DNA of 54,312 nt from Euzebyales bacterium (GTDB lineage: Bacteria > Actinomycetota > Nitriliruptoria > Euzebyales > JAHELV01), in contig DATHVN010000166.1 of NCBI GenBank assembly GCA_035461305.1, positions 1-54,312 of the forward strand, written 5' to 3'. The translations under genes were made by a program, and so were the position numbers. Shown in pieces: positions 46,016 through 51,717 of the stretch. The first letter of the stretch is position 1. Every line of letters begins with the position of its first letter. The notes beneath the pieces are model-generated. The model was not told the DNA's origin and did not search any database. It worked only from the letters and a program-made list of their open reading frames with translations.

Positions 46016-47212
46016 GTGCTGTGGTCGCGGCGCCAGATACTGACCGGGACGTCGATCGGCATCGGCGCGACGCTGTTGTTCCACCAGGCGGCGCGCAACC
46101 GCGTCGACCTGCCCCCGTCGCAACCATTCGAGATCGCGGCCGAGCCCGACAGCTCGCAGGCGGCGCCCGGTCCCGCGCGTGTCGCGCAGCCGCCGCCCGG
46201 TCCCGCGCGTGTCGCGCAGCCGCCGCCACCACCGGACACCACGGCATTTGACGCCGGGGGGTCACGCGCGATCCACCGGGTGCAGCTGTCCGACCGCGGC
46301 CAGCCACGCGCGGTCGCGAGGAGCGACGCCGGGGTCCTGGTCATGGGGATGTCCTCGGACGGCGATCCGCTGGGCTGGCTGACCGACGACGGCACCCGGT
46401 GGGTCGAGCACACGCTCGGCACGCGCGATCGGCAGACGGCCGAGGTCTGGGGCGTCGCCCCGTACGCCGGCGACTTCGTGGCCGTCGGCTCGACGATCGA
46501 GCGTGTCGACCGGCGCATCGCCGAGAGTGGCATCGTGCCGGGGCCGAATACGCAGGTCACCTTCGTCGAGTGGCGGCGGACGCCGACTGTCTGGCGCACC
46601 AGCGACTGCACCGCGTGGACGGGGCAGTCGTTCGAGGACGTCGTCGGTCAGCATGCGGATCTGATCGCCGTGGCCTGTGACGGCACCCGCCTGGTCGCCG
46701 TGGGCGGCACGCTCGACCGGGACGGCGTCGAGGGTACCGGCGGCCTGGTGCTGACCTCGACCGATGGTGCGAGGTGGCGTCGGGTCGACCTCGGCGCCGA
46801 CGGCTCGATGAACGAGGGTTCCTTCACGGGGGTCGCGGTCGGTGACGACGGCTGGTATGCGACCAGCGTGGACATCGAGGGTGGCGCGGTCTGGCACTCG
46901 GCCGACGCGTCGCGCTGGTCGGTCGTCGACGGCTCCCGCAACGCCTTCCGTGGCATCGCGCTCCAGGGGATCGGCATCGATCGGAGTCGGATCCTCGTCG
47001 CCGGCACCCCGCTGTTCGAGCCCGAGCCCCGGTACTTCGTGTCGCGCACCGGCGGGCGCAGATGGGGGAAGGCGAAGCTCGACGTCTCGCTGCTGGCGGG
47101 ACCCGGCGCGCGGGTCGGCGACCTGAGTGTGATCGCCGGAGACGTCGTGGTCGTCGGCACCAATCGAGGGGTCCCTGTGCTCGAGGGCGGGGAGTTGCAT
47201 GTCGGCAACTGA
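46016..47212 (+). CDS. Tat-exported Asp-box (propeller-like) protein
   Basis: 398 residues from GTG 46016 (GTG 45968 is possible). The N terminus LWSRRQILTGTSIGIGATLL has a twin-arginine motif (SRRQIL) with a moderately hydrophobic segment. A Pro/Ala linker includes two copies of PGPARVAQPP. The rest is made of beta-repeats with Asp-box-like turns: LTDDGTRW, RTSDCTAW, TSTDGARWRRV, HSADASRW and SRTGGRRW, each near a VAVG or AVACDG strand, typical of sialidase-like or BNR propellers. No enzyme motif is visible. It overlaps the peptidase gene by 14 bases, so both products are probably made together and act at the cell surface. Confidence 0.75.
   Translation: MLWSRRQILTGTSIGIGATLLFHQAARNRVDLPPSQPFEIAAEPDSSQAAPGPARVAQPPPGPARVAQPPPPPDTTAFDAGGSRAIHRVQLSDRGQPRAVARSDAGVLVMGMSSDGDPLGWLTDDGTRWVEHTLGTRDRQTAEVWGVAPYAGDFVAVGSTIERVDRRIAESGIVPGPNTQVTFVEWRRTPTVWRTSDCTAWTGQSFEDVVGQHADLIAVACDGTRLVAVGGTLDRDGVEGTGGLVLTSTDGARWRRVDLGADGSMNEGSFTGVAVGDDGWYATSVDIEGGAVWHSADASRWSVVDGSRNAFRGIALQGIGIDRSRILVAGTPLFEPEPRYFVSRTGGRRWGKAKLDVSLLAGPGARVGDLSVIAGDVVVVGTNRGVPVLEGGELHVGN
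46165..46224 (+). repeat. 30-bp tandem repeat in the linker of the Tat-exported protein
   Basis: Two identical 30-bp units, 46165-46194 and 46195-46224, encoding the ten-residue PGPARVAQPP twice. In-frame, so it only changes linker length; such repeats are prone to copy-number change between strains. Confidence 0.85.
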
Positions 47213-47867
47213 GTCGGTCTACCGGACGATCGGCGGCATCCCCCTGCGGTACGTGCGGGTGTCGCCGGTGCTGAGGTCCGTCAATGTCCGCTCGACCCAC
47301 GACTTGGAGCACAAGCTCGACAACCTCTCGCACAACCTGGGGAGCGCCGTGCCCCCGTGGTACGGCGGCCTGCGCTGGATCGCGACGGCCGGCGTCTACG
47401 TCAACAGGCCCGGTTACCACGGCCTCGGTCGCGCGTTCGACCTCGACGTCGTCCGGTGGCGCAACGCCGCCTGCCGACCGATCCGTGGCCACCACCGCAG
47501 CCAGTATCTGTCGCTGCGCCGCCGCTACATCGGCGTCGACGCGCTGGCCCGGCGCTGGTTCAAGTACGTGCTCGACGCCGGGTACAACACCGCGCACCTC
47601 GACCACATGCATCTCGACGACGGCGGTGGCGCGCTGGTGTTCAACACCGGGTACCGGTCGGACACCGTGTTCGTCCAGCGGGCAGCGAACGTGATGATCA
47701 ACGCCGGACTCGTCATCGACGGCATCTACGGGCCGCTGACCGATGCGGCGTTCCACAAGATGAAGAACCGGGTCGACGTGCCGCACCGGGTGTCGACGAG
47801 CCCGCGCGTGTACCGCCGGTTCCTGTGGCGACTGGCGATCCACGCGCTGCGAAACCGCCCGCTGTGA
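47199..47867 (+). CDS. Extensin-like/LAS-type peptidase domain with peptidoglycan-binding domain
   Basis: 222 residues from ATG 47199, with GGGGAG upstream and 14 bases inside the previous gene. RYVRVSPVLRSVNVRSTHDL leads to YHGLGRAFDLDVVRW (His74, Asp81 or Asp83) and AHLDHMHLDDGGG (His136/His138), the H...D...HxH zinc layout of LAS metallopeptidases and extensin-like C-terminal domains. VFVQRAANVMINAGLVIDGI and YGPLTDAAFHKMK form a type-1 peptidoglycan-binding motif. No signal peptide is visible, so export would need another route or association with the Tat-exported partner. Likely role: cell-wall peptide hydrolysis or binding. Confidence 0.75.
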   Translation: MSATESVYRTIGGIPLRYVRVSPVLRSVNVRSTHDLEHKLDNLSHNLGSAVPPWYGGLRWIATAGVYVNRPGYHGLGRAFDLDVVRWRNAACRPIRGHHRSQYLSLRRRYIGVDALARRWFKYVLDAGYNTAHLDHMHLDDGGGALVFNTGYRSDTVFVQRAANVMINAGLVIDGIYGPLTDAAFHKMKNRVDVPHRVSTSPRVYRRFLWRLAIHALRNRPL

Positions 47868-47941: not shown

Positions 47942-48607
47942 TCAGGTGCGGATCGACCGTAGGGTGGCGAACACGACGAGGTTGTCGCGGTAGCTCCCCG
48001 CCTGCGCGTCGAAGTCGCCGCCGCACGTGACCAGCCGCAGGGTCGGCTCGGGCGTCGGGTAGTAGACCTCGTCGGTAGGGAAGCGCGTCTTGCGGTGCTG
48101 TTCGAGGCGGTCGACGGCGAAGACCGCGACCGAGTCGTCGGCGCGCCTCACGCGGATCTCGTCGCCGGGGCGCAGGTCGCGCAGCCGGTAGAAGACCGCC
48201 GGGCCGGTGGTGGAGTCGACGTGGCCGAGGATGACCGCGGCGCCGATGTCGCCTGGCCGGGGACCGCCACGGTACCAGCCGGCCCGCTGCCAGTCCTGGG
48301 GTGTCCTGATGGCGCCGTCGCGGTCGATCCCCAGCGGCTCGAGCCGGCTCGAGACGCCCACCGACGGCAGCCGGATCCCGACGGGTCGGGGTTCGGCGGT
48401 CCGGCCGCGCTCCGGCGACCAGTTCCGCAGCTCGTCGGAGGCGCGCTGGGGCGCTTCCTCGCGCCGCGCCGCCCAGTCGTCGAAGTAGTCGCCGATGCGC
48501 TCGTAGGCGATCTGCGGCAGCGCTGACGGGTCGCCGCAGCCGCCGAGCAGCACCGCCGACACCAGCAATGGGACGGCCATGCGGCGCACGGACCGTCCCC
48601 CGGTCAT
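47942..48607 (-). CDS. Class F sortase
   Basis: 221 residues. An N-terminal lipobox (LLVSAVLLGGC, Cys24) suggests lipid anchoring instead of the usual TM anchor. The sortase beta-barrel shows PVGIRLPSVGVSSRLEPLGI, WYRGGPRPGDIGAAVILGHV with catalytic His129, VFYRLRDLRPGDEIRV, and TLRLVTCGG with catalytic Cys195, then Arg207 in GSYRDNLVV. All three catalytic residues are present. Class F sortases are actinobacterial and poorly understood; no LPxTG-type substrate is encoded in the window. It overlaps the duplicated helical protein gene upstream as ATGA, so the two are co-translated and probably work together. Confidence 0.92.
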   Translation of the reverse strand: MTGGRSVRRMAVPLLVSAVLLGGCGDPSALPQIAYERIGDYFDDWAARREEAPQRASDELRNWSPERGRTAEPRPVGIRLPSVGVSSRLEPLGIDRDGAIRTPQDWQRAGWYRGGPRPGDIGAAVILGHVDSTTGPAVFYRLRDLRPGDEIRVRRADDSVAVFAVDRLEQHRKTRFPTDEVYYPTPEPTLRLVTCGGDFDAQAGSYRDNLVVFATLRSIRT

Positions 48608-49941
48608 GACGTGGACGTCGCCATCCCGCCGCCGCCGGTCGCCGCGCCACCGCGCGGCAGCCCGTCACGGACCGCGGCGCCGAGGGCCCGGCCCAGGCGG
48701 GTCGCGACGTCGTTCATGTGCGTGTAGGTCTCGTACGCCGTGTCGTGCGCCTGCTCGTAGTCCGTGCTGACGAACGACGAGATCTGGTCCAGCATCTGGT
48801 ACTGGTGGGTGGTCATGGCGTTGGTCAGCATGCGCGCCTTGACCTTGCCGCCGGTCGCCTTCGCCAGCGCCGGGCCGAAGCCGCGCATGGTGGCGTCGAG
48901 GCGGCGCTGGAGCTCGGTGCGCGCGGCCACGTCCTGCTCGGCGACCGCGACGGTGTAGCGCATCAGCAGATCGATGTGACGCACCCAGCGGCGGTTGAAC
49001 CGGCGGGCCTGGGCCTTGCCCAGCAGCGTCGACATCGCCCGGGTGAGCTCCGCCGTGTTGGCGTCCAGTGCGGTGGTGGCGGCGCCGAACTCGCTCGAGC
49101 CGTTCGCGCCGGCGCGGATGACGTCGATCGACAGCTCGACGTGCTCGTCCAGCAGCAGCGCCAGCGACGAGGTGATCTCCTCGCCCGGCGTGGTCGAGAT
49201 GCGCCGCGGGTCCTTGCCCGCCGCTGCGGCGGCGATGGCGGCGCCCAGCGGGTACATGTTGCCGAACGCCTCGCGCTCGAGCTCGTATGCCTGCGCGTAG
49301 TTGTGGGCGCCGTAGGCGTCGATCTGGAACAGGAGGAGGTCGACCTGCATCTGGAGCTTGGTGGCGGCCAGGTCGGTGCTCAGGCGGCCCCCGGTGGTAC
49401 GGTCGAGCAGCGCGGACTGGTCGGCGATCGTCGTGGACAGGTTCCGGCGCGCCTCGTCGCGGGCGGCCTCGTCGTCGTCGCGCACACCGGCCGCGTAGCT
49501 GAACAGGTGCTGGGTCTGCTGCTCCCACAGCTCGGCGAACTGTTCGGCGGCGTCGTCGCCGAGCGCCGGCTGCAGCGTCTCGCGCAGGTCCTGCGTGTTG
49601 CGCACCAGGACGGCGTTGGCGGTCTCGACGAACTCCGGATCGCCCGAGACGGTCGCCCGCATGAACCGCACGCTCAGCGTGGCGTGGTGCGCGAGGTGGG
49701 CCTGCAGCTGCGACCGCAGCTTGCGGCGCTGCGCCGGGGTCGCGCCGTCGCGGGTGAACACGGCGCTTGCCTCGGACCAGTCGTCGACGGTCGAGCCGCG
49801 GCCGATGAGGCGGTCAAGGACGCCTGGCTCCCCGGCGACCATCGGAACGATCACCGCGATCAGGGCCAGGACCAGCACGACCCGGACGACGACCGACAGC
49901 GTCGCGAGGACGCTTGTCGTCTGTCCGTTGCCGCCCGCCAT
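48604..49941 (-). CDS. Membrane-anchored protein with an internal duplication, unknown function
   Basis: 445 residues. One TM anchor (LSVVVRVVLVLALIAVIVPM, about 15-34) precedes two copies of a helical unit at about 75-237 and 257-424. Aligned pieces: ATLSVRFMRATVSGDPEF / VELSIDVIRAGANGSSEF; AVLVRNTQDLRETLQPALG / TALDANTAELTRAMSTLLG; EQFAELWEQQTQHLFSYA / RRFNRRWVRHIDLLMRYT; LLDRTTGGRL / ALAKATGGKV. The C-terminal tail is GGAATGGGGMATSTS. I do not recognise the domain. It sits directly before and overlaps the class F sortase gene, the likely partner. It is not an obvious sortase substrate because no LPxTG-type motif or C-terminal TM is present. Confidence 0.75.
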   Translation of the reverse strand: MAGGNGQTTSVLATLSVVVRVVLVLALIAVIVPMVAGEPGVLDRLIGRGSTVDDWSEASAVFTRDGATPAQRRKLRSQLQAHLAHHATLSVRFMRATVSGDPEFVETANAVLVRNTQDLRETLQPALGDDAAEQFAELWEQQTQHLFSYAAGVRDDDEAARDEARRNLSTTIADQSALLDRTTGGRLSTDLAATKLQMQVDLLLFQIDAYGAHNYAQAYELEREAFGNMYPLGAAIAAAAAGKDPRRISTTPGEEITSSLALLLDEHVELSIDVIRAGANGSSEFGAATTALDANTAELTRAMSTLLGKAQARRFNRRWVRHIDLLMRYTVAVAEQDVAARTELQRRLDATMRGFGPALAKATGGKVKARMLTNAMTTHQYQMLDQISSFVSTDYEQAHDTAYETYTHMNDVATRLGRALGAAVRDGLPRGGAATGGGGMATSTS

Positions 49942-51420: not shown

Positions 51421-51485
51421 CGCACTACGGTACGCCGACGCCGGTCCGCCGCCGTGGCCGCCAGGCCAGGGGCCATCGCCGTGAC

Positions 51486-51656
51486 GCGTTCCTCGGGCCA
51501 CCGAACGGCGGGCGTCGGAGGACGACCTTGCAGCCGACCGGGCTCCACGACGTCTCCCGGCTCGGGGACGGCGGCGCCGCGTTCCTCGGGCCACCGAACG
51601 GCGGGCGTCCGAGGACGACCTTGCAGCCGACCGGGCTCCACGACGTCTCCCGGCAC
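51486..51656. repeat. 93-bp period intergenic tandem repeat
   Basis: Two units start at 51486 and 51579. The first 75 or so bases are identical apart from one G/C change. The repeat lies between the GH3 start and the PhoD stop. On the minus strand it can be read as ETSWSPVGCKVVLGRPPFGG twice, but no start, ribosome-binding site or family supports expression. The surrounding bases 51421-51718 hold no gene. Confidence 0.8.
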
Positions 51657-51717
51657 GGCGTGCCACGTTCGCCGTCGTGTGGCAGCTCGTGCCGGTCTCC
51701 CGGCACGGCGTGCCACG
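51645..51717. repeat. Direct repeat with an internal hairpin
   Basis: The 23-base sequence beginning GTCTCCCGGCACGGCGTGCC occurs at 51645-51667 and 51695-51717. Each copy contains GGCAC-GGC-GTGCC, a stem-loop. The second copy abuts the PhoD stop codon and may act as its terminator. Confidence 0.7.

Follow-up and report, generated by a model that had tools for sequence, protein, structure and literature searches.

A class F sortase gene coupled to a probable substrate that ends shortly after its sorting motif, without a C-terminal membrane segment

In the window (the whole stretch of 54,312 nucleotides that was analysed), a class F sortase gene is coupled to the gene of a 445-residue helical protein, here named HEL (helical sortase partner), and we consider it probable from the sequences that the two are a dedicated sortase and its single substrate, with HEL retained at the membrane via its N-terminus. 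Of a sorting signal, HEL reads as having the recognition half only; it appears to work like a sortase substrate, yet the hydrophobic segment and the charged tail, two features that define the classical signal, are absent. The features of the gene pair are listed below, with the basis of each assignment in brackets.

47942-48607, minus strand: class F sortase gene, 221 aa (NF033748, PF04203, alignments)
48604-48607, minus strand: ATGA stop/start overlap of the HEL and sortase genes (sequence)
48604-49941, minus strand: HEL gene, 445 aa (open reading frame, homologs, sortase adjacency)
48607-48624, minus strand: six residues after the motif, MATSTS, without hydrophobic segment or charged tail (sequence)
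48625-48657, minus strand: class F sorting motif P429-R-G-G-A-A-T-G-G-G-G439 (seven invariant columns, single genome copy)
48667-49188, minus strand: helical unit 2, HEL residues 252-425, six helices (AlphaFold2, conservation)
49222-49737, minus strand: helical unit 1, HEL residues 69-240, six helices (AlphaFold2)
49837-49923, minus strand: N-terminal hydrophobic helix, HEL residues 7-35 (AlphaFold2 with low pLDDT, alignment)

An earlier, sequence-only reading of the window had described a sortase gene overlapping that of a 445-residue partner by ATGA, and both open reading frames are borne out on the minus strand; the ATGA overlap is also present in the five nearest HEL-sortase pairs, with short overlaps or gaps elsewhere. 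The class F assignment made in that reading holds as well, the protein scoring 189.5 bits against the NCBIfam model NF033748, above the curated cut-off of 166, and matching PF04203 of Pfam with an E value of 1.5e-22. The active site was assessed from alignments, the AlphaFold2 model from three sequences having a mean pLDDT of 42. Of the three catalytic residues earlier named as intact, His129 and Cys195 are invariant among the paired sortases and are also aligned across sortase classes, whereas Arg207 does not stand, this residue being Arg, Thr, or Gly among the paired sortases and varying more widely across class F as a whole. The alignment places Asn209 of the window sortase (codon 47981-47983) where class E sortases and the class F sortases of Bacillota carry the catalytic Arg of the sortase superfamily. 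This Asn is no bar to class F membership, because Asn occupies the position in all 65 of the actinobacterial class F sortases sampled (L093-L152 among them). The catalytic Arg is present in a class F sortase of Planococcus (EERLVVYT) and in a class E-like enzyme (ERLIVFA). The lipobox LGGC, with Cys24, agrees with the earlier prediction that the sortase is a lipoprotein; it is kept in 9/10 paired sortases, and a lipobox pattern is found in about a third of the class F sortases sampled. The window enzyme thus resembles the class F sortases (NF033748, SrtF of Actinomycetota) in its score, in His129 and Cys195, and in the Asn at the Arg position, and differs from those of NF033748 in being a predicted lipoprotein that is probably dedicated to a substrate without a C-terminal transmembrane segment.

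The partner had been described as one transmembrane anchor followed by a duplicated helical unit, and this architecture is confirmed by the presence of one hydrophobic helix and two homologous halves, which align by BLASTP with 29% identity over 183 residues (E 7.5e-18) and reach a Smith-Waterman z of 25 against shuffles. The AlphaFold2 model of HEL, built from a shallow three-sequence alignment with a mean pLDDT of 67.6, shows two units of six helices each, with the C-terminal tail disordered (residues 430-445, pLDDT about 30). Helix 7-35 is a probable membrane anchor or signal-anchor and, with the lipobox in relatives, gives HEL an N-terminal export signal; by inspection, a lipobox is found in 5/10 motif-bearing homologs, and a hydrophobic segment lacking the Cys is found in the window protein and four relatives. 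HEL has no match in Pfam or NCBIfam, and profile searches of the PDB gave no meaningful match. Membership of the duplicated protein in a known unrelated family would have spoken against a partnership; no curated family covers it. Structural comparison of the model yielded no convincing relative: the best Foldseek E value was 0.068, and VIA-align Z values of up to 11.7, to designed helical bundles only, lie in a range that is uninformative for helical proteins. Four residues of unit 2, His267, Trp319, His322, and His379, are nearly invariant across the HEL family and His408/Met409 are frequent; the counterpart positions in unit 1, His142 and His199, are Gln in the window HEL.

The case for HEL as a substrate is carried by its C-terminal tail (...DGLPRGGAATGGGGMATSTS). 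The statement in the sequence-only reading that no standard sortase substrate lies nearby is literally true, but it overlooked the motif at the C-terminus of the partner itself, residues 429-439. The pattern P-x-G-G-x-x-T-G-x-G-G followed by 4-7 residues forms the end of 10/10 complete HELs directly followed by a class F sortase gene and of 0/29 complete HELs without an adjacent sortase, a contrast that does not amount to ten independent events because the homologs are related; on a HEL tree built without the tails, the motif/sortase state must have changed at least twice. The unpaired HELs number 31 in all (0/31 with the motif), two of them being cut by contig ends, hence the 29 complete proteins. 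In the alignment of the motif-bearing HELs the invariant columns are P429, G431, G432, T435, G436, G438, and G439, and beyond the nearest four the whole proteins are ~31-43% identical, the distant members sharing ~31% with the window protein. The genome of 4.24 Mb has a single copy of the coded motif, at 48626-48657 in the part encoding the HEL C-terminus, and a control search of the same 4.24 Mb with the reversed motif gave no match. Measured against a classical sorting signal, the recognition motif is in place near the C-terminus, the hydrophobic segment after it is missing in all ten motif-bearing HELs, and the window HEL has no basic residue after the motif and no positively charged tail. 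Cleavage is predicted between Thr435 and Gly436.

HEL homologs were found in 27/101 relatives and, by profile search, in 34/396 genomes across the phylum; genes in the fetched loci were called with a home-made caller based on codon composition. Where the end of a close homolog is intact, the next gene downstream encodes a class F sortase. The ten HEL-sortase pairs represent the family of the window, two further genera in the same order, and one distant family within the phylum (f17). Conservation of the pair beyond the strain had been set as a check on the partnership, and it is answered by these ten pairs in Actinomycetota and by further pairs on Planococcus plasmids, the HEL-class F sortase unit being present in two bacterial phyla. 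In family f17 the pair is followed by a gene for an LtrA-family membrane protein (L040:7723-8925 and L041:9762-10967), an assignment confirmed with PF06772 for L040 and made by clustering for L041.

The same motif is found beside other class F sortases, whose loci were fetched across the phylum and had genes called around each. A relaxed form of the motif in the last 75 residues is present in 19/58 same-strand neighbours versus 4/307 other genes (Fisher p 2e-13), and 18 of these 19 neighbours run on into a hydrophobic segment, 31-44 residues separating the end of the motif from the C-terminus; the one exception is another HEL. The motif, a membrane helix, and an Arg-rich tail mark the neighbours of class F sortases across Actinomycetota, which are otherwise diverse, proteins with an ice-binding domain and with DUF4397 among them, and variant motifs occur in other class F neighbours. 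The genome of the window itself encodes four further class F sortases (L093-L096), each near a protein with a related motif, a transmembrane segment, and a basic end. Two of these motif and membrane-segment proteins, those of L095 and L096, contain DUF4397, and L096 also adjoins ECF sigma/anti-sigma genes. NCBIfam already has models for class F sortases and for the GVDTG signal; the motif corresponds to NF058571, the GVDTG sorting domain (GVDTG_CTERM). The model matches class F sortase neighbours, two of them above its cut-off, and a scan of 101 genomes with it retrieved the HEL tail of L039 (G023:C281:10750-10803, E 1.1e-4, 25 bits). This match covers model positions 1-18 of 44 and is followed by the stop codon, with no membrane half. 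The window HEL gave no match to NF058571, a whole-domain score above 29 bits not being reached. Compared with the GVDTG sorting domain, HEL shares the motif half, G-x-x-T-G-x-G-G with an upstream Pro, and is without positions 19-44, which hold the hydrophobic segment and the basic tail.

Complete signals are found on HEL homologs outside the phylum. Three Planococcus plasmids (NZ_CP019643.1, NZ_CP019641.1, and NZ_CP016541.2) encode two-unit helical homologs with 24-31% identity that end in MPETGMGG, MPKTGMGG, and MPDTGFGG, each followed by a transmembrane segment and an Arg/Lys tail, and in 2/3 the gene lies directly upstream of a class F sortase gene. The sampling of Bacillota consists of these three plasmid-borne genes from one genus; a single-protein contig search gave two close relatives. 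Planococcus and window HELs alike have TGxGG where the helical part ends. Unlike the window protein, those of Planococcus carry a complete sorting signal and an N-terminus that reads as an ordinary signal peptide, and judged by these features the family appears in Planococcus as an ordinary sortase substrate. The NCBI product name on the Planococcus homologs is 'copper amine oxidase', with one of the three annotated as hypothetical; this name has no support from a copper amine oxidase domain, none being matched in the window HEL, in the three Planococcus homologs, or in the families listed for 15 diverse members.

Because the motif is also carried by the neighbours of other class F sortases, is represented in NF058571, and forms part of the complete signals of the Planococcus HELs, it is read as a substrate signal, and HEL is very probably a substrate of the adjacent sortase. 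The sequence-only reading had left the partner as either an unconventional substrate or a scaffold; the former is favored by the 10/10 versus 0/29 distribution, the motifs of the neighbours, and the Planococcus signals, and the latter gained no specific support. With pair conservation, the correlation of motif and sortase, the absent C-terminal transmembrane segment, and the complete Bacillota signals read directly from the genes, what we infer is where HEL is cut, that it is transferred by transpeptidation and to which acceptor, and that the mature protein keeps its N-terminal anchor. HEL would be exported and probably kept at the membrane by its N-terminus, through a hydrophobic segment in the window protein and a lipid in several relatives. 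The flexible C-terminal tail would offer G-A-A-T-G-G-G-G to the sortase, which is encoded by the translationally coupled gene downstream and is itself predicted to be a lipoprotein. An attack by Cys195 after Thr435 would then free the last ten residues of HEL, and Thr435 would be joined to an amino acceptor, most likely a cell-wall precursor. In such a scheme the N-terminal anchor would replace the C-terminal hydrophobic segment and positive tail of ordinary sortase substrates. Exogenous LPETG peptide without a transmembrane segment is incorporated by living S. aureus in a SrtA-dependent manner (PMC3929722), indicating that sortase recognition itself can do without a C-terminal transmembrane segment; the authors concluded that only endogenous exported substrates depend on the hydrophobic domain and the charged tail (PMC3929722). 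That conclusion weighs against the enzyme-substrate reading, as do the relatedness of the homologs, the variant motifs of other class F neighbours, the lack of a match of the window HEL to NF058571, and Asn209 in place of the usual Arg, the last being shared by every sampled class F sortase of Actinomycetota.

A possible, still tentative extension of this enzyme-substrate reading is that HEL tethers the membrane to the wall, with the N-terminus in the membrane, the C-terminus covalently in the wall, and a helical rod between them. It draws on the N-termini of the ten motif-bearing HELs, five with a lipobox and five with a hydrophobic segment of non-lipobox type, on the position of the motif at the extreme C-terminus, and on the elongated helical shape predicted for HEL. 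The Planococcus HELs do not fit it: with a signal that looks cleavable and a complete sorting signal, they would be ordinary wall proteins. Braun's lipoprotein is likewise helical, with its N-terminus in the membrane and its wall-attachment point at the extreme C-terminus, and in Gram-negatives it is attached through its C-terminal Lys by L,D-transpeptidases. The likeness is a functional analogy only, as the sequence is unrelated and the attachment enzyme is different. The fullest version, put forward more tentatively, would have the pair as a self-contained, N-terminally anchored enzyme and substrate in which the signal has shrunk to the bare motif and the product ties membrane to wall, as a sortase-based counterpart of Braun's lipoprotein.

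The tail could instead be a docking or pseudo-substrate element, with HEL a non-covalent scaffold or regulator, as might be suggested by the lack of a C-terminal transmembrane segment, the tight coupling of the genes, and the predicted membrane anchoring of both proteins. We regard this as unlikely, since the Thr-Gly and the flanking Gly residues are strictly kept, as they are in the neighbours with complete signals and in the Planococcus HELs, and the genes next to the pair encode no further substrate candidate. A functionless, decaying remnant of a former sorting signal is a much less probable description of the tail. The homolog L042, sister to L039, has no sortase and no clear motif and ends GTTSGARHSS, which seems to be a state of loss, and decay therefore does occur in the HEL family; in the ten paired HELs, however, the motif is strictly conserved down to ~31% identity and always accompanied by an intact adjacent sortase. 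That a frameshift into the frame of the sortase supplies a C-terminal transmembrane segment, or that a sequencing error hides one, can hardly be maintained: the ATGA overlap does bring the hydrophobic N-terminus of the sortase directly behind the tail, but ten separate genes stop 4-7 residues past the motif and their sortases start at varied distances and in varied frames.

The three-part signal of motif, hydrophobic segment, and charged tail has been regarded as obligatory for endogenous sortase substrates. In the limited literature searched, no account was found of a natural substrate ending at its sorting motif. Beside sortases of one class, homologous proteins are now seen in two forms, with a complete signal in Planococcus and with the motif only plus an N-terminal anchor in Actinomycetota, and this makes it testable whether membrane retention is all that the C-terminal segment provides. 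Current models of sorting signals miss motif-only substrates, and more of them may therefore exist. Few roles are known for class F sortases, and a clear substrate signal helps to assign them. The class F neighbours of Actinoplanes missouriensis were described in 2026 as having a signal peptide, a transmembrane segment, and a basic tail, with a pentapeptide motif not found, and no visible phenotype was reported for a quadruple srtF mutant (PMC13251363).

The homologs that are not paired with a sortase are almost all lipoproteins, and they lack the motif. A gene for a plastocyanin-like cupredoxin lipoprotein lies within three genes of 19/31 of them (with examples among L042, L050, L052, L055, and L164-L185), and among the paired loci L039 has a cupredoxin-related gene after the sortase; ECF sigma/anti-sigma genes recur near HELs. 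These cupredoxin-associated helical lipoproteins of Actinomycetota share the two-unit structure and the His/Trp pattern with the window HEL and, unlike it, have no adjacent sortase and no motif. The conserved His residues in each helical unit suggest a metal or redox module, and a metal or redox role of HEL is plausible. Two loci (L050:3270-6681 and L052:161-3312) contain operons where HEL is followed by a cupredoxin, a small secreted protein, and a class F sortase; here the small protein bears the signal, PxGGVxAGFGG and a transmembrane segment, and the HEL is without the motif.

Elsewhere in the window, an 88-nt direct repeat is present in two copies at 51478-51658 (94% identical, spacing 93), with no further copies elsewhere in the genome, and is located between a glycoside hydrolase family 3 gene and a PhoD-like gene. 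The convergent gene adjoining the pair (47199-47867, plus strand) gives a weak, sub-threshold match to the extensin-like C-terminus (PF06904) and possibly encodes a peptidoglycan-related protein.
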